Assembly (NCBI GenBank): GCA_022843845.1
Contig: JALHMW010000001.1
Location: 124,001-188,000, forward strand
DNA: 64,000 nt
Direction of reading: 5' to 3'
DNA from: Archangium sp.
GTDB taxonomy: Bacteria; Myxococcota; Myxococcia; Myxococcales; Myxococcaceae
Shown piece by piece: positions 496 through 24,987 of this stretch (positions are counted from its first letter, which is position 1; every line of letters starts with the position of its first letter). The notes below the pieces were generated by a model, which made no database searches, had not been told where the DNA came from, and was given only the letters and a program-made list of their open reading frames with translations. A program made the translations under genes and the position numbers.

Positions 496-1130
496 GTGAC
501 GGCTACTTCGCCACCCGCCTGGAAGAAGACGCGCGTCGAGACGTGGTGTGGCACACCCTGTGGACGTCGTTCTTTTCCAAACGCATCGCGCCGACCGACA
601 CCGTGCTCGATCTCGGCGCGGGGTGGGGCTCGTTCATCAACCAGGTGAAGGCAGCGCGGCGAATCGCCGTCGACCAATGGCCCGAGCTGGCGCGCCACCT
701 CGCGCCCGGCGTCGAGGCCCACGTCGGCGACGTCACCAACCTCGACTTCCTCGCCGAGCGCTCCGTCGACTTCGCCTTCGCCAGCAACCTGCTGGAGCAC
801 CTCACGCGCGAGCAGAACGCCGCGCTGCTGAAGGCGCTGCGGCCACGACTGACGGCTGGCGGCACCTTGAACCTGGTGCAGCCGAACTTCCGGTACTGCG
901 CCCCGCAGTACTTCGACGACTTCACGCATGTCACCGTCTTCAGCCACGTCAGCCTGTGTGACTTCCTCGAGGCCAACGGCTTCGAGGTGACCGAGTGCCA
1001 GCCGAAGTTCCTGCCGCTCACCGTGAAGTCGCGGCTGCCGACCTGGCCCGCGTTGATCAAGGCCTACCTCGCCAGCCCCATCAAGCCGATGGCTGGCCAG
1101 ATGTACGTTCGCGCACGTGTTCGCAGGTAG
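492..1130 (+). CDS. Class I SAM-dependent methyltransferase
   Basis: Motif I 'VLDLGAGWGSFI', 'FAFASNLLEHL'; ATG at 492 overlaps upstream stop. Confidence 0.85.
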   Translation: MSDGYFATRLEEDARRDVVWHTLWTSFFSKRIAPTDTVLDLGAGWGSFINQVKAARRIAVDQWPELARHLAPGVEAHVGDVTNLDFLAERSVDFAFASNLLEHLTREQNAALLKALRPRLTAGGTLNLVQPNFRYCAPQYFDDFTHVTVFSHVSLCDFLEANGFEVTECQPKFLPLTVKSRLPTWPALIKAYLASPIKPMAGQMYVRARVRR

Positions 1131-1137
1131 CTCGCGA

Positions 1138-3774
1138 ATGGCCCGATCGACGAGGTGGGTGCTCGCGCTGGTGCTGGCGCTCGATCTGCTGGCCCTCGGG
1201 TGGCAGGGAGCGCTCCAACAGCTCCGGCTCGTCGTCGAGACACGCGGGCCCGGCACCCTCGAGCTCGACGATGGCGTGAGGCGAACCCTCGCGGTCGACC
1301 CCGCGCCAGAGCCGCTGCGGCTGACGATTCTCAACGCAACCGCCCAGGGAGCGACGAGCCTGATCGAGGTGCCTGCCCTCACCACGGCCCACCGGGCGCG
1401 GCTGTTCGATGCCTCGACCTATACGGCGACCCCCGGGTTCTCCGTCGAGGGGCTGCGAGAGGGGGGCGTCTGGCGCTCGAGCACGTCGGGGGCATCGCTC
1501 TCCTGGCAAGGGCGGGTCTCTGGGCTGTTCACGAGGGTGCCCTGTGGTCGCGACCGCGGAGTGGTTTGCATCGAAGGCACGGGCCTCGAGCGCGCGTGTC
1601 ACGATCTGTCGTCGTGCTCGGGAGACATCTCGGTCGACGTCATCAGTCCCCGACGTCTTCACACGGCGCTGATTCCCCTCTGGCGCTCAGGGCTCACGCT
1701 CTCGGCCGATCAACCGCTTCAGATCGAACGCCTCGAGCTGCGGTTCGGGCACCACGTCGTGCTCGAGCGGCCCGGCATGACGCTCGAGGCCGCTGAACGA
1801 ATCGAGCTGCCCGCGCTGGTCCGATTGGGTGCGCTCGGCGCCTTCATCGGCAATGGCGCGTTGCTGCTCCTGCAAGTGCTCTTGCTCGTCGTGGTGTCGA
1901 TCGTCCTGGGCGCGACGGTCGTGACGCCGTTCGTCGATCGCCTGGGCCTGCTCGAGGCGTTGCTCCTCTCGTTCTTCGCGGGTCAGGGCCTGATGTCGAA
2001 CCTGACGACCTCTCTCTTCTGGTTCGTGCCGACGACGGTCGGCTCGCCCGTGGTGGCCGGCGTGCTGGCGGTGATCAGCGTCTTTCAGCTCGCGCGAGGT
2101 GGGGCACGGCGGTGGCGGGCCGTCATCACGAACGTGTCTGCGGACGAGCGGGCGCGGCTGCTGACGGTCTCGTTGTTCGCAACCGTCACGACGCTCCTCG
2201 TCGCCGCGCCCGCCCTCACCTTCCCCGGCTGGTTCGTCGGTCACGGCTACACGGACTCGATGGACTACCCGACGTGGGCGTCACTGGCGCAAGAGGCACC
2301 ACTCGATCGCGGCCTGGCCGCCATTCGTTTTCAAGACTTCGTGCGCGTGTCGGTGACGGCGCAGACGCTCGGCGTCGACACCGTCGGGGCGCTCGGCCCG
2401 CAGCTCACCGTGCTCTGGTGGGTGCTGCCGTTCCTGGGGCTGGCGTTGCTGCGGCGCTTCGGCGTCTCGGATGAGGGCGCGCTCATCGGCGCCGCGCTGG
2501 CCGGGCACGGGCTCTGCTTCTGGGAGATCGCCACCCAGTGCTACCTGCCGCAGTACGAAGTGGCGCACTTCGCGGTGGCCGGGCTGTGGGCCGCGGCCTG
2601 GCTGCTGGGCGAGCAGCGCGAGCGGTCGTGGCAGCCAGAGCTGGCGGTCGCCTGTGTCTTCGCGGCGAGCGTGGGGCTGTACCCGTACCAGGCCTTCAGC
2701 GTGATGGGCTTCGGCGTCGCGGTCGTCGCGGCGGCGGCGTGGCGCAGACAATCGGCGCTGCTGCTGATGGTGGGCCGCGTCGGGCTCTTCACCGCGCTGG
2801 TCACGAACCTGAACCTCGAGGTGGTGTTCGACTTCGGGCAGGGCTCGATGCAACACCGCGCCGCGCTCAATGCCATCGGCAGGGGCGTCGTCTTCCCCTG
2901 GTACGCGAGCCCCGAGGCGAGGGCGATTCTCGCGGGCACCGACGACTTCGTGCGAACGAGCGCGCTGCGAGAGCCCATCTACGCCGAGGTGTTCGGAGGG
3001 CTGCCGAAGACGGGCCGCCGGTTCGCCGCCCTCGAGGCCTTCATCGGTCGCCTCGCGCCAGCGTTCACCTGGGTGATGCTGGGGGTGGCGGCCGGGGCGC
3101 TCTGGCTGATGGGCCGCCGGCGCGACGTCACGGCCTTCGTCGCCCTCGCGACCCTTGGTGTTCCGCTGATCATGACGTTCGGGCTGATGCGCAGTGACGA
3201 CGTCTACTTCTGGGTGAAGTCGCTGATGACGTTCAGCGCGTTGATGGTCGTGCCCTTCGTCGGCGCGGTGGGCTCGCTGGCCGCGTCGTCGGGGCGGGGG
3301 CCGCGGTGGCTCGGGGTCACCGTCGCGGTGGGCTTCGTCGCACTCTCGCTCCGCACGAGCTGGTTCGACACGCTCGCGTACCTGATCAGTCGCGAGTCGC
3401 CGGCGCTCGCAGCGACGAGAACCCACCTGCCCGTCCACACCGAGGCGCTCAGCCGGCTTCAAGCGTGGGTGCAGACGCAGCCTGCGCATCGGCGGGTGGT
3501 CTTCGTCGGCACTCTGCACGACCGGTATTGGACGGACGGAGACATCATTACCTACAACCGCCTGCTGGCGTTCTTCGAGGGCCACGAGGTTCGGTACGGA
3601 GATGACGTGCGCAAGCGCTACACCCGCAGCCGCCAGCCCAACTACGTCGGCCCCGAGGCCCTGGGCGCCTTCGACGTGATGGTCCGCTTCGATGACTGCG
3701 CAGCCGAGGGCTTCACGTCAGTTCTGGTCACCGACCTCTTCTGTGTGCTCCAACGCGGTCAATCGACGAGGTGA
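1138..3774 (+). CDS. Large polytopic membrane protein (GT-C-like), function unknown
   Basis: Long ORF with many hydrophobic segments and a soluble C-terminus; ATG 1138 chosen over GTG 1117. Confidence 0.7.
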   Translation: MARSTRWVLALVLALDLLALGWQGALQQLRLVVETRGPGTLELDDGVRRTLAVDPAPEPLRLTILNATAQGATSLIEVPALTTAHRARLFDASTYTATPGFSVEGLREGGVWRSSTSGASLSWQGRVSGLFTRVPCGRDRGVVCIEGTGLERACHDLSSCSGDISVDVISPRRLHTALIPLWRSGLTLSADQPLQIERLELRFGHHVVLERPGMTLEAAERIELPALVRLGALGAFIGNGALLLLQVLLLVVVSIVLGATVVTPFVDRLGLLEALLLSFFAGQGLMSNLTTSLFWFVPTTVGSPVVAGVLAVISVFQLARGGARRWRAVITNVSADERARLLTVSLFATVTTLLVAAPALTFPGWFVGHGYTDSMDYPTWASLAQEAPLDRGLAAIRFQDFVRVSVTAQTLGVDTVGALGPQLTVLWWVLPFLGLALLRRFGVSDEGALIGAALAGHGLCFWEIATQCYLPQYEVAHFAVAGLWAAAWLLGEQRERSWQPELAVACVFAASVGLYPYQAFSVMGFGVAVVAAAAWRRQSALLLMVGRVGLFTALVTNLNLEVVFDFGQGSMQHRAALNAIGRGVVFPWYASPEARAILAGTDDFVRTSALREPIYAEVFGGLPKTGRRFAALEAFIGRLAPAFTWVMLGVAAGALWLMGRRRDVTAFVALATLGVPLIMTFGLMRSDDVYFWVKSLMTFSALMVVPFVGAVGSLAASSGRGPRWLGVTVAVGFVALSLRTSWFDTLAYLISRESPALAATRTHLPVHTEALSRLQAWVQTQPAHRRVVFVGTLHDRYWTDGDIITYNRLLAFFEGHEVRYGDDVRKRYTRSRQPNYVGPEALGAFDVMVRFDDCAAEGFTSVLVTDLFCVLQRGQSTR

Positions 3775-3982
3775 CGGAGAGAACTACGGCGGACTGCACC
3801 AGTGGAACTTCGATGTTCGCGATGGCGAGTTCGTGCTGTGGACCCGCGTCGACGTGGCCGGCGACGTGCCGCTTCGGTATCAAGCGGTGGACGAGCTGAA
3901 CCAGCTGCTCACGGGTGCGCCCTTCGTGCAGCGGGCCTTGAAGCGGCTCGTGCGAGGGCTTCTGTGCCAGCGGCTCCCGTGA
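3692..3982 (+). pseudogene. Short orphan ORF / gene remnant ending in a PLRYQAVDELNQLL... tail
   Basis: Overlaps the 3' end of the upstream CDS; no convincing start; C-terminus matches the tail of the ORFs ending at 10484 (+) and 12426 (-). Confidence 0.4.
3869..3982 (+). other. Shared C-terminal tail motif, copy C
   Basis: PLRYQAVDELNQLLTGAPFVQRALKRLVRGLLCQRLP. Confidence 0.55.
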
Positions 3983-7187: not shown

Positions 7188-7408
7188 AGGAGGACGCCGA
7201 AGCCTTGGCGCGTGCGCTCATGCGTCACGCCGTGGAGCAGGCCCGGACGGTTCGCTTGTTGTGGACTGGCCAGCGCGAGCAGGACTCGAGGGTGCATCCC
7301 TCGTTGAGACAGCAGGCCTCGATGTGGTGGGCGGGGGCCGAGACGCCAGCGCGGCTGGCGGTGCTTCGGGCGCGCGTGCGCCTGGCGGTTCGAGCTCTGC
7401 GGCCATGA
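7184..7408 (+). CDS. Small hypothetical protein, translationally coupled on both sides
   Basis: GTG 7184 overlaps upstream TGA (GTGA); its TGA overlaps the downstream ATG at 7405 (ATGA). Confidence 0.5.
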   Translation: MKEDAEALARALMRHAVEQARTVRLLWTGQREQDSRVHPSLRQQASMWWAGAETPARLAVLRARVRLAVRALRP

Positions 7409-9483
7409 CTTCGACGCTCTCGCTGCACGAGCTGCCCACCCGCCTGCCGTCGATGGCACGAGGCTTCCGGGTTGTCGGCTTCGACGTCTTCAACACGCTG
7501 ATGCGGCGGAGCGTCGAAGGCGAGTGGATCAAACGCGCCTCGGCCCACGCGCTCAGGCAGCGGCTCGCGACGATGCTCCACCGCGATCATCTCCCCTCGG
7601 CCGCCCAGGTCCTGCTGCGCCGTCAGGAGCTCGAGCGGGAGCTCGTCGCCGAGCGCGTCGCCCGGGGCGAGGACAACGAAGTCGACTTCACCGAGCTCGT
7701 GCCGCGATGGGTCGGCACGTGGGTCCCCCGGGGCAACCAGACGCTCGTCGAGCTCTGCGAAGAAGACGAAGTGCGCCTCGAAGAGCGGGCGCTCTCGGCG
7801 ATGCCAGGGGTCGCCCAGACGCTCGCCACCCTCAAAGACGCCGGCCACCGGCTCATCTTCGTCAGCGACATGTACCTGCGCGCCCACCACCTCTGGCGCT
7901 TTCTCAAGGGGGTCGGGCTCGCCCGCTTCTTCGATGCTGGCTACGTCTCGAACGACGCCGGGCTGCGCAAGGCGACGGGGCGCCTGTTCCCCTGGGTGCT
8001 CGAGTCCGAGGCCATCTCGCGAAACGAGCTGCTGTTCGTGGGGGACGATATCGAGGCCGACGTCGTGCAGCCGAAGCGGCATGGCATCAAAGCTGTCCTG
8101 ATCGCCGATGCCCCTGAGCTGGCCCGTCGCGGCCGCCTGCAGGCCCTCGAGCGACTGTCGAAGGCGCAGACGACGTGGTGCGAGGCTTTCGTTCACGAGT
8201 TGATGCCAGAGGCCCACGACAGCGATCGCCCGGAGCACATTCACGAAGCGCTCGGCCGAACGTTGGCGCCGGGACTGGTGGCCTTCGTGATGGAGACGGT
8301 CGAGCTGGCCCGCCTCGAAGGCGCGCGGCGCATCTTCTTCCTGGCGCGAGAGGGCCTCACCTTTCTACGCATCTACGCCAGGCTGCGTCGGGCTGGAGTC
8401 TTCGGCCACGAGGACGTGCCCGAGGCCCGGTACCTGTTCGTCTCGCGGGCGTCGACGATTCTGCCCTCGATGCGCAGCCTGTCGTGGAGCGAGCTGTCGC
8501 GCTTCTGGCGGCAGTACCCGAACCAGAGCCTCAGGAGGCTCCTGAAGAACCTGGGGCTGAACGAGTCTCCTTTCGTCGAGAAGGGGGCCGAGCTCGGCCT
8601 GACGGACGCCGACCGGCCCCTCGGCCCGCCCGATCAGGACCTACCCTTCGCGGCCTTCCTCGCCTCTCGCGACGTTCATGCCGCGTTCCTGGCGGCGCGC
8701 GACGTGAGCCGTAGCGCCCTGCGCACGTACCTCGGGCAGACCGGGCTCTGGGGCGAGCAACGCGTCGTGCTGGCGGACATCGGGTGGAAGGGCTCGATGC
8801 AAGACAACCTGGCCCGCGCGTTCGAAGCAGAGACCGGTGCGCCCGAGCTCGTCGGCCACTACGTGGGCCTGGCGCAGCGAGGCGAAGCCACGGGCCGATC
8901 ACGCAAGGTGGGCTTCCTCGCTGATTGCCAACGGCCCGACCTCGACGAGGTCGACCTGTTTCGCAACACCGCGATCTACGAGATGGCGACCCAGGCCTCC
9001 CACGGCACCACGCGGCGCTACGGCCCGCACCCCCACGTCCAGGGTCGGGTGGTGCCGGTGCTCGAGCTCCACGAGGTCGAACGCGAGAACACCGCGCAGT
9101 ACTTCCGTCACGCCCAGCGCGGCATCGACGAGTGGACGCGCCAGTTCTGCGACGTCTTTCCGCTCGCGCCCTTCTCGGGGAAGGAGCTCAGGCCCGGGGC
9201 CCTGGCTCGGGCGCTCAACTACATTCGTTACCCCACGCGCGCACAGGCCGACGCCTTCTTGCGCTACTCGCACGTCGAGAGCTTCGGGGTCGACCACATC
9301 AGTCGTTTCGGCTTCGACGTCACCTTCGCCGAGCTGCTCGGCCGCACGCCACGCGCGACCGTTCACGAGCTTCAGCGCCGGTTCGAGCACACCATGTGGC
9401 GAGAAGGGGTCGTGCGTCGCTCTGGAGTACCCCTCGGCACGTTCCTGTGGGATCTCTGGGTCACTCTGCAGCGCGTGAGGTAG
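7405..9483 (+). CDS. HAD superfamily hydrolase, large COG5610-like protein
   Basis: 'VVGFDVFNTLMRR' motif I, 'FVSDMYLRAHHLWRFL' motif II, 'LLFVGDDIEADVVQPKRHGIKAVLI' motif IV; long C-terminal extension. Confidence 0.8.
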   Translation: MTSTLSLHELPTRLPSMARGFRVVGFDVFNTLMRRSVEGEWIKRASAHALRQRLATMLHRDHLPSAAQVLLRRQELERELVAERVARGEDNEVDFTELVPRWVGTWVPRGNQTLVELCEEDEVRLEERALSAMPGVAQTLATLKDAGHRLIFVSDMYLRAHHLWRFLKGVGLARFFDAGYVSNDAGLRKATGRLFPWVLESEAISRNELLFVGDDIEADVVQPKRHGIKAVLIADAPELARRGRLQALERLSKAQTTWCEAFVHELMPEAHDSDRPEHIHEALGRTLAPGLVAFVMETVELARLEGARRIFFLAREGLTFLRIYARLRRAGVFGHEDVPEARYLFVSRASTILPSMRSLSWSELSRFWRQYPNQSLRRLLKNLGLNESPFVEKGAELGLTDADRPLGPPDQDLPFAAFLASRDVHAAFLAARDVSRSALRTYLGQTGLWGEQRVVLADIGWKGSMQDNLARAFEAETGAPELVGHYVGLAQRGEATGRSRKVGFLADCQRPDLDEVDLFRNTAIYEMATQASHGTTRRYGPHPHVQGRVVPVLELHEVERENTAQYFRHAQRGIDEWTRQFCDVFPLAPFSGKELRPGALARALNYIRYPTRAQADAFLRYSHVESFGVDHISRFGFDVTFAELLGRTPRATVHELQRRFEHTMWREGVVRRSGVPLGTFLWDLWVTLQRVR

Positions 9484-9485
9484 CC

Positions 9486-10484
9486 ATGGCCGATCAGACC
9501 GAGTACTCCGGCGAACGTTACGATCCGCTCCAGGCCAACGCGCTCGCGCATTACGATCATCACGCGCGCTACCACTTCGTGAAGCGGTCCTTTCACGGCG
9601 GCCGGCTGCTTGACGTGGGCTGCGGCCTCGGCGTGGGCGCGGCGTTCCTCTCGGACTCGTTCGACGAGGTGGTCGGGATCGACGCCAATGATGCGGCGGT
9701 GCGAGAGGCCACGCAGCAGCGCGCCTCGTCACGACTTTCCTTCTCGAGCGTCGACGACTTCGTCGCCAGCAGCGCTTCGGGGTTCGACGTCGTCACCTGT
9801 CTCGAGGTCATCGAGCACACGGTGGCCCAGGACGAGCTGCTCCAACTGCTCAAGCGCGCCGTGCGCCCCGACGGGGTCGTCGTCATCTCGACCCCGAACC
9901 GCCGGTGGACCGAGCACAAGCGCATTCGCAACCCGTTTCACGTCAAAGAGCTTCACCACGACGAGTTCTTCGCGCTCGCGAGGCAGGCCTTCCCGCACGT
10001 GCAGGCGTGGTCGCAGGTTCAGGTCCAGGGAGCGTGCGTGACCCAGCCCGGGAGCGACGCCGCTCCATGGACGACGTTCTCGACGCCCGGAACGCTGCCC
10101 GACCCAGCGCTGGCGACGACGAACTTCGTGGCGGTGTGTTCGCTCTCTGCTCGAGCGCTGGCGCAGCCGGTCTCGGTGCTCGACGCAGCCTGTACCTTCC
10201 AGACACAGCTCGAGGCGATGATCACCAGCAATGAGCGCATGATCGACGCGCGCGACGTGCTCATTCGCGAGCAGGACGAGCTGGTCGCTGCGCTCAAGCA
10301 CGAACGGGCGACGCTCGCGGCGCAGCTCAGCGCGCTCGAGCTCCAGGTCGCCAGGCTGCGCCGCCTCGAAGAACCTCCCGATGCCGACGCGATGCCGCTT
10401 CGGTGGAAGCTGGCCGATCGCGCGAACTCCGCCTTCAAGAAGACGCCGCTGCACTCGTTGTTGAAGCGCGCGATTGGGCGTTGA
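9486..10484 (+). CDS. Class I SAM-dependent methyltransferase with C-terminal coiled coil and PLRW tail
   Basis: 'GGRLLDVGCGLGVGAAFLS', 'VVTCLEVIEHTV'; tail 'PLRWKLADRANSAFKKTPLHSLLKRAIGR'. Confidence 0.85.
   Translation: MADQTEYSGERYDPLQANALAHYDHHARYHFVKRSFHGGRLLDVGCGLGVGAAFLSDSFDEVVGIDANDAAVREATQQRASSRLSFSSVDDFVASSASGFDVVTCLEVIEHTVAQDELLQLLKRAVRPDGVVVISTPNRRWTEHKRIRNPFHVKELHHDEFFALARQAFPHVQAWSQVQVQGACVTQPGSDAAPWTTFSTPGTLPDPALATTNFVAVCSLSARALAQPVSVLDAACTFQTQLEAMITSNERMIDARDVLIREQDELVAALKHERATLAAQLSALELQVARLRRLEEPPDADAMPLRWKLADRANSAFKKTPLHSLLKRAIGR
10395..10484 (+). other. Shared C-terminal tail motif, copy A
   Basis: PLRWKLADRANSAFKKTPLHSLLKRAIGR. Confidence 0.6.
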
Positions 10485-10491
10485 GGCGGCC

Positions 10492-12429
10492 TCACGGCCT
10501 CCGCAGCAGAGTCCGAAGCGCGGCCCGGGCGGTGAGCGACGCCTCGTCGGGAGACCTCGCGATGCGCTGATACAGCGCGGCGGTCTCGGCGGCCGTTGTC
10601 TTCCAGTCGAACGAGCGCACCCGCCTCGTGCCGGCGGCGACGAGCCGCGCAGCCTCTGCAGGCTGGCCCAGAACCCTGATGATCGCCGCTGCGAGTTCCT
10701 GCGGTGACAACGAGGTCAGCGTCACGCCGGCATCGCCGACGACCTCGCGGAGCCCCGACACCCCCGCCGCGATGATGGGCACCCGACACACCATGGCCTC
10801 GAGCGCGAGCAGACCGAAGCCCTCGTAGACGCTCGGCAGGACGGCGACCGAGGCCCCCGCGAGCGTCGGGAGGACGTCTTCAGGCGGCAGTTCTCCGAGC
10901 AGTCGCACGCCCTCGGGCAAGGCGCGACCAGAGGTGTAGAGCGCTCCTGCGAGGTTCGACGGCGGCCCTGCGAGGACCAGGTCGACCTGCAGCTCCCGAG
11001 GCACCAACGCCCAAGCTTCGAGGAGCAGCTCGAGGTTCTTGTGGGGGTAGTCGCTCCCGGTGTGCACGACGTACCGCGCCGGCAGCGAACGCTCGCGCCG
11101 AACCCGTCGAACCTCTTCAGCCGATGGTGCAGCGCCGACATCGACCCCGAGGGGAGCCGTGGTGAGCCGCGAAGCGAGCGTGGGAAGCAACTCGAGCAAC
11201 TCACGGGCGGCGACAGCCGAGATGGCGACGACACCTTGCGCCGCCGACAACGCCGCCCACGTCAGCGCGCGAAACTCGCGGGTGCGCTCGAAGGCGCCGA
11301 GCGCGGCAGGAGAGCGATACGCGATCAGATCTTGCCAGGTGAAGACGAGGTGACCTTCGGCGTCGAGCAGCTCGAGCAGCTCGTCGACGCGGTAGACCTG
11401 CGTGGGCTTGTGAACGACGTGAAAGCCCTCGAGCGCAGTCCCTGCGTCGACGCAGCTGACGCCGTCGGGCGCCAACGCGTCGACCACGGCGGGGGTCGCG
11501 CGCACGGTGAGCGCGATGCCGGGGACCTGCGAGAGCGCTCTGGCGAGCTGGGTCCCGTAGACTGAGGTTCCGTGAATGGCAGGCGCGACGAGGTGTGAGA
11601 GGTCGAGACACACCTTCAACGGGCCGACCTGAGCAGAGACGGCGATGGCCGCCACGCGCGCATGGGGACCTGATTCGAAGTCTGCGTTCTGGGCGAGGTA
11701 CGAAGGGTACCGCGCCACCAGTCGCCTCCCATTGTGTTCATCGAGCTCGGCTCGGGCCCCCTGGAAAGAGACCTCGCCGTGATGGAAGACCAGGCAGCGA
11801 TTGGCGCGCACGACGCTGAACCCCAGGGCCCGCGCACGTTGGCACCAGTCGTTCTCTTCGTTGTACCCGCGCCCATACGCCGGGTCGAACAGGCCGATGA
11901 GGTTCAGCACCTCATCTCGCATCGCCAGGCAGAACCCCACGCCCGTCGGAGTGTCCGTCCACCGCGGCAAGCCCGAGAGGTCGACGCGAACGTCACGGAG
12001 CGAGTCGACGGTGACGCCGGCTCCGAAGGTCGGCACCGAAGCGAGCGTGGCGTTGTTCGACAGTGGCGTGACGGCGGCGATGCGGTCGTGCGAGTGGAGC
12101 ACTTCGACGAGTTCGGTCAGCCAGCCGACTGGCACCTCGGTGTCGCTGTTGAGGATCACCACGTCGCCACGCCGGACCGACATGCCGCGGTTCGCGGTCG
12201 CGACGAACCCCAGGTTCACCTCGTTCTGAAGAAGCCGCACTCTGTCGTCACGTCGGCGGAGGGCCTCGAGCATGGCGGGCATCTCGGGCTCCGGCCCTCG
12301 ATCGTCGACGATGATGAGGGTTCGGAGCGCAGGCCCGGAGTTCGCCAGGACCGATTCGAGGCACCGCCTCGTCACCTCGACATCGGCGTACACAGGCACC
12401 ACGACGTCTGCCTGGACGGGCGAGGTCAT
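10492..12429 (-). CDS. Two-domain glycosyltransferase (N-terminal GT2 + C-terminal GT4/GT1)
   Basis: N-term '[22 protein letters not shown]...[17 protein letters not shown]'; C-term '[24 protein letters not shown]...[26 protein letters not shown]'. Confidence 0.85.
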
Positions 12430-12536
12430 GCCTTCTTCCCGCGCCGGTTCAGCAGCTTCCTGGCTGCGCTGTGCACCGGGCCGAGAGCGCGCTTCGCCGA
12501 ATCGTTGATCGTATCGGCGAGCTGATACCGCAACGG
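12426..12536 (-). other. Shared C-terminal tail motif, copy B
   Basis: [36 protein letters not shown]. Confidence 0.6.
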
Positions 12537-12734
12537 CGCCGGGCCCAATCCAGTGCCGGCAGGAAACCTGGGCACCGACGCCTCGCCCTGATGTCGCACC
12601 TGCAGGCGCAGCGCGTTGGTGAGCTCGCGCTCGCGGGCCAGTGCCTCCAACGCCTCGTCGCGATCGCGCCGAGCCTGCGACAACGCACGTTCGAGGTCGC
12701 TCGCGGTCTGGGCCCGGGGAGTTCGTTTCGTCAT
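12426..12734 (-). CDS. Small coiled-coil protein with PLRY tail
   Basis: 102-aa reading of the larger ORF starting [20 protein letters not shown]; 4-bp ATGA overlap with downstream GT start; tail matches copy A. Confidence 0.65.
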
Positions 12735-12797: not shown

Positions 12798-13820
12798 ATG
12801 AACGTTCTCGTCACAGGAGGTTGCGGCTTCATCGGCTCCAACCTCGTCCACTGGCTGCGGAAGAACCGGCCCACGTGGACGGTCGTCAACCTCGACAAGC
12901 TGACCTACGCGGGGAACCTCGAGAACCTCTCGGCTTTGGAAGGCGATCCGAAACACGTCTTCATCCAGGGCGACATCGCGAACCGCGAGCTCGTCGATCA
13001 CGTCATCCGCACGCATCGCATCGACGCGATCATGCACCTCGCGGCCGAGAGCCACGTCGACCGCTCCATTCTCGGGCCCGAGGCCTTCATCAAGACGAAC
13101 GTGCTCGGCACCCAGGTGCTCCTCGAGGCCGCGCGTCACGCGAAGGTGAACCGGTTCCTCATGGTGTCGACCGACGAGGTGTACGGCTCGCTCGGGCCCA
13201 CGGGGCTCTTCACCGAGACCACGCCGTTGTCGGCCTCGAGCCCCTACTCCGCGTCCAAGGCGTCGTCCGATCTGATCGCGCTCGCGTACGAGCACACCTT
13301 CGGGCTCGACGTCGTCGTCACCCGCTGCTCCAACAACTACGGCCCGTACCAGTTCCCCGAGAAGCTGATCCCGCTGATGGTGATCAACGCGCTCAACGAC
13401 AAGCCGCTGCCCGTCTACGGAGACGGCCTCAACGTGCGTGACTGGCTGCACGTCGAAGATCACTGCGCCGCGCTCACCACGGTGCTCGAGAAGGGCAAAA
13501 AGGGCGGCGTCTACAACATCGGCGGCAACTCGGAGCGCACCAACATCGTCATCGTGAAGACGATCCTCCAGGCCGTCGGCAAGCCCGAGACGCTGATCAA
13601 GTACGTGCAGGATCGCCCCGGCCACGATCGCCGCTACGCCATCGACGCCACGAAGATCCGCACCGAGCTGGGCTGGCAGCCGACCTTCGTCTTCGAGAAG
13701 GCGCTCGCCGACACGGTGAAGTGGTACCTCGACAACCGCACCTGGTGGGAACGGGTCACCTCGGGGGCGTACCGGCAGTACTTCGACAGCCAGTACAAGG
13801 CTCGCCTCGAGAAGCACTGA
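12798..13820 (+). CDS. rfbB: dTDP-glucose 4,6-dehydratase
   Basis: '[20 protein letters not shown]', '[12 protein letters not shown]', '[45 protein letters not shown]'. Confidence 0.97.
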
Positions 13821-13821
13821 C

Positions 13822-14724
13822 ATGCGCGTCGCCGTCACGGGGAGTAACGGACTCGTTGGCCGACGGCTGGTCTCGCAGCTGATCGGGTCGGGCCATGAGG
13901 TGCTCGGGCTGTCACGCGGCGATCGTCGCGTCGAAGGCGCCTTCACGTACGCGGCCGTCGATCTCTCCGATGGCGCGCTGCTCTCGAAGACCCTCGGCGA
14001 TTTCAAGCCCGACGCCATCATCAACCCCGGCGGCATGACCGACGTCGATGGGTGCGAGCGCGATCCGCTCGCGGCGTATGAAGCAAACGTCAGCGGCGTG
14101 GCGAGCCTCGCGAAGGCGGCGCGCTCCACCGGCGCTCACCTCGTGCACGTCTCGACCGACTACGTCTTCGACGGCGAGGCCGGTCCGTATGCCATCGACG
14201 CGAAGCCGAACCCGCGCGGCACGTACGCCCTCACGAAACACGCCGGCGAGCAGACGGTGAAGGCGCTGCTGCCTGCCAGCCAGTGGACCATCGCGCGCAC
14301 CGCCGTCGTCTTCGGCTGGCCCTCCACCGGGAAGAACAACTTCGGGTTCTGGCTGGTGTCGACACTCGCGCAGGGCAAGCAGGTGCCGCTGTTCGAAGAC
14401 CAATGGGTGTCGACGAGCCACGCCACGAACGTCGCCGCGATGGTGAAGGAGCTGGCCGAGAAGAAGCTCGCCGGCCTCTGGCACACCTGCGGCGCCGAGG
14501 TGATGGACCGGGTGAGCTTCGGCCTTCGGGTCTGTGAGCGGTTCAGCTTCGACAAGGCCCTCGTCAAAGCCAGCCGCATGGCTGACGTGAAGCTCGCGAG
14601 CCCCCGGCCCGCGAAGAGTGGGCTCGACGTGACGAAGACGGCGCTGTCGCTCGATGCAAAGCCATGGGCCGTGGCGCGCGCCCTCGATGAGCTGTACCGC
14701 GAAAGACAGGAGCATCCATCATGA
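13822..14724 (+). CDS. rfbD: dTDP-4-dehydrorhamnose reductase
   Basis: '[17 protein letters not shown]', '[15 protein letters not shown]', '[14 protein letters not shown]'; rhamnose operon context. Confidence 0.9.
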
Positions 14725-15599
14725 AGGGCATCGTCCTCGCCGGTGGTTCAGGCACCCGGCTGTACCCACTCACCCGCGTCGTCTCGAAGCAATTGCTGCC
14801 GATCTACGACAAGCCGATGGTGTACTACCCGCTGTCGGCGCTGATGTTGGCGGGTATCAAAGACATCCTGATCATCTCCACTCCGCAGGATCTGCCCCGC
14901 TTTCGCGAGCTGCTCGGCGATGGCAGTCAGTGGGGCATCTCGCTCTCGTACGCCGAGCAACCGAAGCCCGAGGGGCTTGCGCAGGCCTTCATCATCGGCC
15001 GGCAGTTCATCGGCAACGACAAGGTCGCGATGGTGCTGGGCGACAACATCTTCTACGGCGACGGGTTCACGGGCCTGCTCCAACGCGCCGCACGTCTCGA
15101 GCGAGGCGCCACGGTGTTCGGCTACTGGGTGAACGACCCCGAGCGGTACGGCGTCGTCGAGCTCGACTCGGACAGGCGGGCCATCTCGATCGAAGAGAAG
15201 CCGAAGCAGCCGAAGTCGAACTACGCGGTGACAGGGCTGTATTTCTACGACAACCAGGTGGTCGATATCGCCGCCACGCTCAAGCCGGGTGCCCGAGGCG
15301 AGCTCGAGATCACCGACGTCAACCGCATCTACCTCGAGAGGAAGCAGCTCACGGTCGAGATGATGGGTCGCGGCTATGCGTGGCTCGACACGGGTACGCA
15401 CGAATCGCTGATGGAGGCGTCTGACTTCATTCACGTGATCGAGAAGCGCACCGGGCTCAAGGTCGCCTGCCTCGAGGAGATCGCCTGGCGTATGGGCACC
15501 ATCGACGACGCAAAGCTCGAACAGCTCGCGCAGCCGATGGCGAAGAACGAGTACGGCCAGTACCTGCTCGGACTGCTCAAGAACAAAGGCAAGATGTGA
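14721..15599 (+). CDS. rfbA: Glucose-1-phosphate thymidylyltransferase
   Basis: '[46 protein letters not shown]'. Confidence 0.97.
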
Positions 15600-16147
15600 A
15601 CGTCACGCAGACGGCCCTCCCGGGCGTGCTGTTGCTCGACCCGAAGGTGTTCGGCGACGCACGAGGGTTCTTTCTCGAGACCTATCGGGCTGAGCGCTAC
15701 CGGGAGTTCGGGATCTCCTTCCCCTTCGTTCAGGACAACTGGTCCCGCTCACGCAGAGGCATTCTGCGCGGGCTGCACCTGCAGCACCCCAACGCCCAGG
15801 GGAAACTGGTCATGGTGACGCGCGGGAGCGTGTTCGACGTCGTGGTGGACGTCAGGCGCGGCTCTCCTCACTTCGGCAAGTGGGTCGGCTACGACTTGTC
15901 GGAAGAGAACAAGCGCCAGATGTGGATTCCGCCCGGCTTCGCCCACGGGTTCTGCGTCACCTCAGACGAGTGCGACTTTCTCTACAAGTGCACCGAGATC
16001 TACGCGCCCGAGCACGAGCGCACGGTGCTCTGGAATGACCCAGCCATCGGCGTGCAGTGGCCGGTGAGCGCGCCTGTGCTGTCGAAGAAGGACGAGGTCG
16101 CGCTTCCGCTGAGCCAGCACACCAACCTGCCCGACTTCATCGGTTGA
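15596..16147 (+). CDS. rfbC: dTDP-4-dehydrorhamnose 3,5-epimerase
   Basis: '[31 protein letters not shown]...[22 protein letters not shown]'. Confidence 0.96.
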
Positions 16148-24075: not shown

Positions 24076-24987
24076 TCAATTCCGACAACACGCGACGCCG
24101 GTGATCATCGGGTTCCATTGGCACCCACTCGAGTTCTGCGACGAGTCAACGCGACCCGAGGCGAGGCAAGAACCGCCAGAGCCCAGTGCCATCTGAATGC
24201 AGTTGGCACCGATACCTCCCATGTCGGGGTCGGTCGGCGCGCTTGAGACGCAACAAGCGAGACACATTCCAATCGAACCGCGGCAGGAGGGGTAGCACGC
24301 GTTGCAATCATGAGCGGTATCGAAAGCAAAACAGCCAAGAAACGAAGTGGCCTGCTGGAACGTCACGGTGCCAATGACCGAGTCAGTGCCCCGACAAACG
24401 TGCCAGCCTGGTGCGCAGAGGGATGCAGCCGACGGCTCGTCGATCCATCCGGTCCACACCCCATCGCATGCCGCAACATTCGGAAAGAGCGTCGCGTTCA
24501 CGAGCCCCTCGCGGGTGCCATCGGCACAACCCGGGGTGCCGCCGGCGCTTCCTCCAGCCGAGCCACCGGCACTTCCTCCAGCCGAGCCACCGGCACTTCC
24601 TCCAGCCGAGCCACCGGCACTTCCTCCCGCCGAGCCACCGGCACTTCCTCCCGCCGAGCCACCGGCACTTCCTCCCGCTGAGCCACCGGCACTTCCTCCC
24701 GCAGAGCCACCAGCACTTCCTCCCGCTGGGCCACCAGCACTTCCTCCTGCTGAGCCACCGGCACTTCCTCCCGCCCCGCCACCGCCACCTCCTCCCGCCG
24801 CGCCACCCGCGCTCCCTCCTGCGTGGCCACCCGCACTCCCTCCCGCCCCGCCACCCGCCGCGCCCGCGCTTCCACCTGACGTCGGTGTGCCGCCGTCTTC
24901 ATCGACTGGCTGGAAGCCGCAGCCTCCGCAGTTGGCGAATACGAATGCCGCCAGAGCCACGAACCAAGCCTTCCCAAAGAGTGCCAT
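24076..24987 (-). CDS. Cys-rich putative lipoprotein with (GGSA)n linker
   Basis: 'MALFGKAWFVALAAFVFANCGGCG' signal/lipobox-like; GGSA repeat; C-term paralogous to 22915-23784. Confidence 0.7.
   Translation of the reverse strand: MALFGKAWFVALAAFVFANCGGCGFQPVDEDGGTPTSGGSAGAAGGGAGGSAGGHAGGSAGGAAGGGGGGGAGGSAGGSAGGSAGGPAGGSAGGSAGGSAGGSAGGSAGGSAGGSAGGSAGGSAGGSAGGSAGGSAGGSAGGSAGGSAGGTPGCADGTREGLVNATLFPNVAACDGVWTGWIDEPSAASLCAPGWHVCRGTDSVIGTVTFQQATSFLGCFAFDTAHDCNACYPSCRGSIGMCLACCVSSAPTDPDMGGIGANCIQMALGSGGSCLASGRVDSSQNSSGCQWNPMITGVACCRN
24541..24870 (-). repeat. Imperfect tandem repeat, 24-nt unit (SAGGSAGG coding), about ten copies
   Basis: Repeated 'gccaccggcacttcctccagccga' and variants on the + strand, in frame with the minus-strand CDS. 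Confidence 0.85.

Follow-up and report, generated by a model that had tools for sequence, protein, structure and literature searches.

To our knowledge, what is known of how cytoplasmic O-antigen enzymes come together at the membrane derives mostly from a handful of enterobacterial systems, where every protein solves the task in its own way. In WbdD, the chain terminator of E. coli O9a and K. pneumoniae O3/O5, the C-terminal region includes an amphipathic helix, and it is this region that recruits the polymerase WbdA (PMC11231755; PMC3482155), and a methyltransferase-only WbdD is known from E. coli O8 (PMC3482155). KpsC of group 2 capsule ends in a basic amphipathic helix on a disordered tether, described as a membrane anchor (PMC10148158). 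The O-antigen of M. xanthus is made by an ABC-transporter pathway (PMC7484181) and, according to the title of Perez-Burgos et al. (2019) as cited there, is needed for motility and development.

In this study, we analyzed a myxobacterial polysaccharide locus, several proteins of which share a tail with the consensus PLRYx[LV][AV]DxxNxxLKxxPxxHxxLK at the C-terminal end. Judged by sequence comparison, the tail is a C-terminal module of about 30-38 residues that has so far gone undescribed. For the window proteins and the other carriers, no Pfam or NCBIfam model covers it. A profile search of the PDB gave an unrelated best match (E 0.076) and no solved chain over the tail, and the open-licence literature searched held no description of a shared tail. 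The window, meaning the whole stretch of 64,000 nucleotides analyzed, is G000:C1:124001-188000 of an Archangium sp. draft genome of 4.95 Mb (54 contigs, about 86% complete). The features discussed below are as follows.

1117-3774, plus strand: 885-aa protein with about 12 predicted transmembrane segments, directly before the remnant at 3777-3982
3777-3982, plus strand: remnant, most likely of a SAM-methyltransferase gene: its 3′ end, about 70 codons long, in which tail copy 3 is intact
3869-3979, plus strand: tail copy 3, PLRYQAVDELNQLLTGAPFVQRALKRLVRGLLCQRLP, the last ~37 codons of that remnant
7261-9483, plus strand: HAD-domain protein without a tail, its gene immediately before that of P0002
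9486-10484, plus strand: class I SAM methyltransferase P0002, 332 aa, with methyltransferase domain, heptad coiled-coil segment and C-terminal tail
10395-10481, plus strand: tail copy 1, PLRWKLADRANSAFKKTPLHSLLKRAIGR, the end of P0002, running to the stop
10492-12429, minus strand: GT2-GT4 glycosyltransferase, 645 aa, by its Pfam GT2 and GT4 matches
12426-12734, minus strand: P0001, 102 aa, coiled coil plus tail, the stand-alone form of the tail
12429-12536, minus strand: tail copy 2, the end of P0001, with the motif at 12536-12513
12798-13820, plus strand: rmlB
13822-14724, plus strand: rmlD
14721-15599, plus strand: rmlA
15596-16147, plus strand: rmlC
G000:C1:121197-121298, minus strand, outside the window: tail copy 4, the C-terminus of a GT4-GT2 protein (L108:16182-18398, minus strand)

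P0002 matches Pfam Methyltransf_23 (E 1.7e-19) with no kinase domain, and its orthologue in genome G002 is 55% identical. It recalls WbdD in its order of N-terminal methyltransferase, coiled coil and C-terminal region, and in a probable ABC-transporter-dependent O-antigen pathway as the setting. Homology to WbdD was considered and rejected: a phmmer search of the PDB with P0002 returned generic class I methyltransferases, and WbdD is absent from the best 60 of 109 matches. The preliminary description of this DNA had placed tails at the ends of P0002 (10484, plus strand) and P0001 (12426, minus strand), each behind a coiled coil, and both placements are confirmed in the sequence. The coiled coil also holds for the two proteins and their orthologues. 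In P0002 the heptad pattern lies at residues 264-291, with a coil score equalled by one of 200 shuffles, and heptad segments likewise precede the tail in the G002 orthologue and in an M. xanthus-type methyltransferase. As a general rule, a tail that follows a coiled coil had to be given up, since it applies to the methyltransferases and the P0001 family whereas glycosyltransferase carriers have a disordered linker instead.

The segment at 3777-3982 is most likely what is left of a tailed methyltransferase gene, the rest of which is gone. This reading follows from the part before its tail, which matches the C-terminal portion of SAM methyltransferases (282-287 aa) from relatives, and from the completeness of the gene before it when set against its orthologue. 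That orthologue of the 885-aa protein, which itself has no Pfam match, is kept at the same locus in G002 (L113:15102-17789, minus strand; 41% identity). On the other side of the tailed genes lie the dTDP-rhamnose genes (12798-16147, plus strand), each assigned by falling in the same cluster as Pfam-typed genes of an M. xanthus-type genome; the M. xanthus-type locus likewise has its rml genes next to tailed ones. Elsewhere, the window holds a tandem repeat at 24538-24855 (24 bases, about 13 copies, 89% matches).

When up to two mismatches are allowed, a degenerate DNA motif of the tail is found twice in the window, where 0.04 occurrences would be expected. Across the whole draft genome there are exactly four tails above noise, all within 15 kb and on four different proteins; the fourth lies about 2.7 kb upstream of window base 1, and the next-best profile match in this genome, at E 0.14, is at noise level. 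The four are 31-48% identical to each other and no closer to one another than to the tails of other genomes, and on this ground we reject a recent copying of a single tail within the locus. Tails of orthologous carriers are the most alike, with 66% identity between the methyltransferase tails of this genome and G002.

A profile built from the three window tails found 16 new matches in other genomes among 60 related genomes (E<1e-3, best 1e-11). The reversed tail alignment, a control that keeps composition, conservation and periodicity, gave zero matches in the same genomes at that threshold (best 0.0043). Later profiles were grown from the matches found, so their E-values are not independent and the comparison of the three-tail profile with its reversed form is the independent one. 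Of 74 distinct carrier open reading frames, 73 have the end of their last tail copy no more than 25 aa from the stop, and in 58 this distance is no more than 10 aa; tandem tails, at least two per protein, are present in 20 of the 74. Pfam identifies the carriers as GT4-GT2, GT2-GT2 and FkbM-GT2-GT4 proteins, class I methyltransferases and one HAD-domain protein, to which short coiled-coil proteins and proteins with no Pfam match are added. Tail-less homologues exist as well: the HAD protein in the window has no tail whereas its relative in G086 (L123) has two, and one of the three methyltransferases that cluster with the G002 orthologue is tail-less. Present in some homologues and absent from others, the tail behaves as a module, which supports, at the level of sequence, the mobile module put forward in the preliminary description. 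Its further expectations, that the three-tail profile would outperform a control, that the tail would be confined to C-termini and that it would sit on glycan enzymes within glycan loci, agree with what we found. One carrier without a Pfam match is a 433-aa protein of a distant Myxococcota family with two terminal tails (L124:4075-5376, plus strand). Its gene lies about 5 kb from a wzm/wzt pair, and it is probably an unrecognised O-antigen enzyme.

The profile search covered three phyla. With the grown profiles, the tail was found in at least 61 of 195 Myxococcota genomes, a lower bound because part of the first-look candidates were scored. It is patchy in the other two phyla: 5 of 58 genomes from the phylum of a Bdellovibrio-named genome (Bdellovibrionota) and 6 of 392 sampled genomes from that of a Phycisphaerales genome (Planctomycetota) have it. 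Genera are unevenly sampled, and these genome counts are thus not counts of independent events. Related loci were gathered by a DNA motif scan, in which species of Myxococcus, Archangium and Citreicoccus are among the named genomes with a tail. Many of the genomes are drafts and not very contiguous, and some named contigs are mislabelled. One contig named Comamonas sp. KCTC 72670 (L106, BNCN01000007.1) has a Myxococcus-type O-antigen locus whose tandem tails are identical to those of genome G147 (Myxococcus-like genus g23), and the Comamonas name is probably wrong. Two metagenome-assembled genomes named Bdellovibrio sp. and Oligoflexales (L094 and L096) share nearly identical tailed GT2-GT2 genes, where either one name or bin is likely off or the gene moved recently. 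A viral origin of the tail was considered and rejected, as the motif scan of viral contigs gave 19 stretches of which none is a true tail: 17 fall on a helix inside a GT-like protein (PLRYQVADAQN...) and lie 44-272 residues short of its end, and the other two meet a stop after four residues. The PLRYQVADAQN of these phage-type GT-like proteins (L073-L091 viral contigs, and L101) resembles the tail core by coincidence.

The genomic setting points to the O-antigen exporter. With a profile for Wzm, the exporter permease, we detected it in all 61 Myxococcota carrier genomes vs. 89 of the 134 others (Fisher p 5e-9, uncorrected for relatedness); no tail was found in those 89 genomes, so Wzm is not dependent on tails. 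In 49 of the 61, a tail gene and Wzm (in most cases the genome's sole Wzm) are 2-14 kb apart. Recurrent neighbours of tail genes are glycosyltransferases, rmlB (18 loci), the Wzt ATPase (16) and the Wzm permease (13), with rmlA, rmlD and rmlC near tail genes at 12, 10 and 8 loci. The locus of the M. xanthus-type genome G158 runs from wzm through wzt (with Wzt_C) to an rfbC-like glycosyltransferase, a methyltransferase and a tandem-tail glycosyltransferase, which adjoins a second tailed GT4-GT2 and rml genes. In Bdellovibrionota genome G195, a tailed GT2-GT2 stands beside another GT2-GT2, wzt and wzm. In our own draft genome the one Wzm-type permease (G000:C36:7471-8277) and the tail locus are on separate contigs, and for that reason no linkage to Wzm is seen there; the draft has no Wzt_C domain. 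G158 also encodes a tailed coiled-coil methyltransferase 3.2 Mb from its O-antigen locus. Tailed enzymes encoded this far apart in one genome suggest that the shared tag could act in trans.

The stand-alone form may be a second case of action in trans. P0001 has relatives that are likewise short proteins made of a coiled coil and a tail, and the genes of this family lie directly upstream of the same glycosyltransferase gene (that of the 645-aa protein and its relatives) in 10 of 10 genomes where they were found, with an overlap or a gap of a few bases. In the window the ATG of the glycosyltransferase gene overlaps the stop of P0001 (ATGA, 12426-12429). In three genomes of the Bdellovibrionota group, a similar tail is fused to GT2-GT2 enzymes. 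Given this conserved pairing and these fusions, the simplest inference is that the 102-aa protein would be a tag supplied in trans to the glycosyltransferase. The Wzm/Wzt link, the tandem forms and the stand-alone forms all go beyond the preliminary description.

Conservation within the tail is uneven and concentrated in few positions. In an alignment of 30 tails from the three phyla, N is present in all 30, R and K in 29, P and L in 28 each, and D in 29 with E in the remaining one. H (25) or Q (5), K/R at position 29 and an aromatic residue or H at position 7 account for all 30 tails, with positions numbered by alignment column. On a helical wheel of tail helix 1, the hydrophobic moment points to 55 ± 13 degrees and Y7, D11, N14 and K18 lie opposite to it at 180-240 degrees. 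The mean net charge of the tails is +5.4. The expected amphipathic helix was in part borne out: the tail is predicted to be basic, amphipathic and helical on a flexible tether, but the amphipathic moment of helix 1 is moderate, with half of the tails exceeding their own shuffled mean by 1 SD. AlphaFold predicts a confident helix at residues 7-49 of P0001, a loose linker (50-67) and a helix at 68-101. For a Myxococcus tandem-tail glycosyltransferase it predicts catalytic domains, disordered linkers and then two helix-kink-helix tails, the tails in this full-length model being of low confidence (pLDDT 30-50); the input alignments were shallow (12 and 7 sequences). Fold searches gave zero matches for the P0001 model and glycosyltransferases for the tandem-tail model, which added nothing for the tail.

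We propose that the tail forms a tethered helix-kink-helix and that O-antigen enzymes dock through it at one common site on the inner membrane, in function like the C-terminal region of WbdD, and we put the probability of this reading at about 0.5. The membrane-association or docking role suggested in the preliminary description is plausible and consistent with the data. What we infer, i.e., docking, membrane contact, a shared partner and a ruler function, would work as follows. The tail would start with an N-cap P-L-R-[YHW] and an amphipathic helix 1, on which D, N and K are invariant; a proline kink would lead into a basic helix 2, and a disordered linker or a coiled coil would tether the tail to its enzyme. 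The tag could then bring the enzymes of Wzm/Wzt-dependent O-antigen synthesis to the same spot at the inner membrane, on its cytoplasmic side. Its hydrophobic face (L5, L9, A/V10, L17) would sit either in the membrane or in some groove; a face both hydrophobic and basic would be well suited to the membrane surface, the site of the lipid-linked acceptor. The opposite face (Y7, D11, N14, K18) would contact a partner common to the enzymes, for which Wzm/Wzt, another tail and a scaffold are candidates. For the coiled-coil methyltransferase, the tag may, as in WbdD, fix how far the site of capping or modification is from the polymerising enzymes, and the 102-aa protein may supply its tag in trans to the glycosyltransferase of the overlapping gene.

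The main rival is a plain amphipathic membrane anchor, by which enzymes working on a lipid-linked glycan would use the helix only for a seat at the inner membrane and have no specific partner. A C-terminal, tethered, amphipathic tail with a net charge of about +5 is what such an anchor would look like, but a generic anchor needs composition and not sequence, and the polar-side N, D, K, R and H/Q are near-invariant over three phyla and at least six carrier types. Since this is unexpected for a generic anchor, the near-invariant polar face suggests one specific partner common to all carriers. A stand-alone coiled-coil plus tail protein with a gene overlapping that of a glycosyltransferase is also hard to fit, and we hold the plain anchor to be possible but rather doubtful. 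The partner could be the tail itself, with tails binding one another and joining the enzymes into homo- or hetero-oligomers. The tandem copies in 20 of the 74 carriers, the coiled coils before some tails and the several different carriers per genome would fit such a module, but a single carrier was found in some genomes (counts that are lower bounds), and we consider oligomerisation unlikely.

It could also be argued that the tail is no tag but the ordinary C-terminal helices of each enzyme's own fold, kept by descent and with no targeting role, as most carriers are glycosyltransferases and orthologous carriers have the most similar tails. This is quite improbable given the same tail on methyltransferases, a HAD protein and coiled-coil proteins that have no fold in common with glycosyltransferases, the tail-less homologues in the HAD and methyltransferase clusters, and the predicted position of the tail after low-confidence linkers in the glycosyltransferase model. 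Coincidental likeness of short basic C-termini in GC-rich genomes deserves hardly any weight: the motif is short and has an internal look-alike in viral GT-like proteins, but the reversed-tail search and the C-terminal confinement rule out a chance origin, and the linkage to Wzm in 49 of 61 genomes is a further argument against it.

If docking at a common membrane site is correct, sequence would suffice to list the members of the assembly by their common tag, even those whose genes are elsewhere in the genome, and the question of assembly would become directly testable in M. xanthus. The tail would also serve as a label for proteins that now belong to no family, the 102-aa coiled-coil proteins among them. 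Tentatively, one could go further and see a dockerin-like assembly code, in which one C-terminal tag, duplicated or carried by a coiled-coil adaptor, would recruit glycosyltransferases and methyltransferases from unlinked loci to the Wzm/Wzt exporter complex; we would presently bet against this extended form.

The cargo peptides of microcompartments and encapsulins are short amphipathic C-terminal helices that gather unrelated enzymes in one place. The tail resembles them in being a short amphipathic helix on unrelated enzymes, but its context is the LPS O-antigen pathway, and no shell-protein family is among the typed neighbouring genes of tail loci. With KpsC it shares, by prediction, a basic amphipathic C-terminal helix on a flexible tether of glycosyltransferases. 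The carriers' Pfam matches (GT2, GT4, methyltransferase, HAD) include no Kdo-transferase family, which sets them apart from the KpsC family; the KpsC helix occurs within one enzyme family, whereas the tail spans enzyme classes and has an invariant polar face. P0002 differs from the kinase-methyltransferase form of WbdD in having no kinase, and the tail described here is a conserved module of ~30 residues on many unrelated enzymes, at times in tandem or as a separate protein. By analogy with the described chain terminator, P0002 may work like WbdD.
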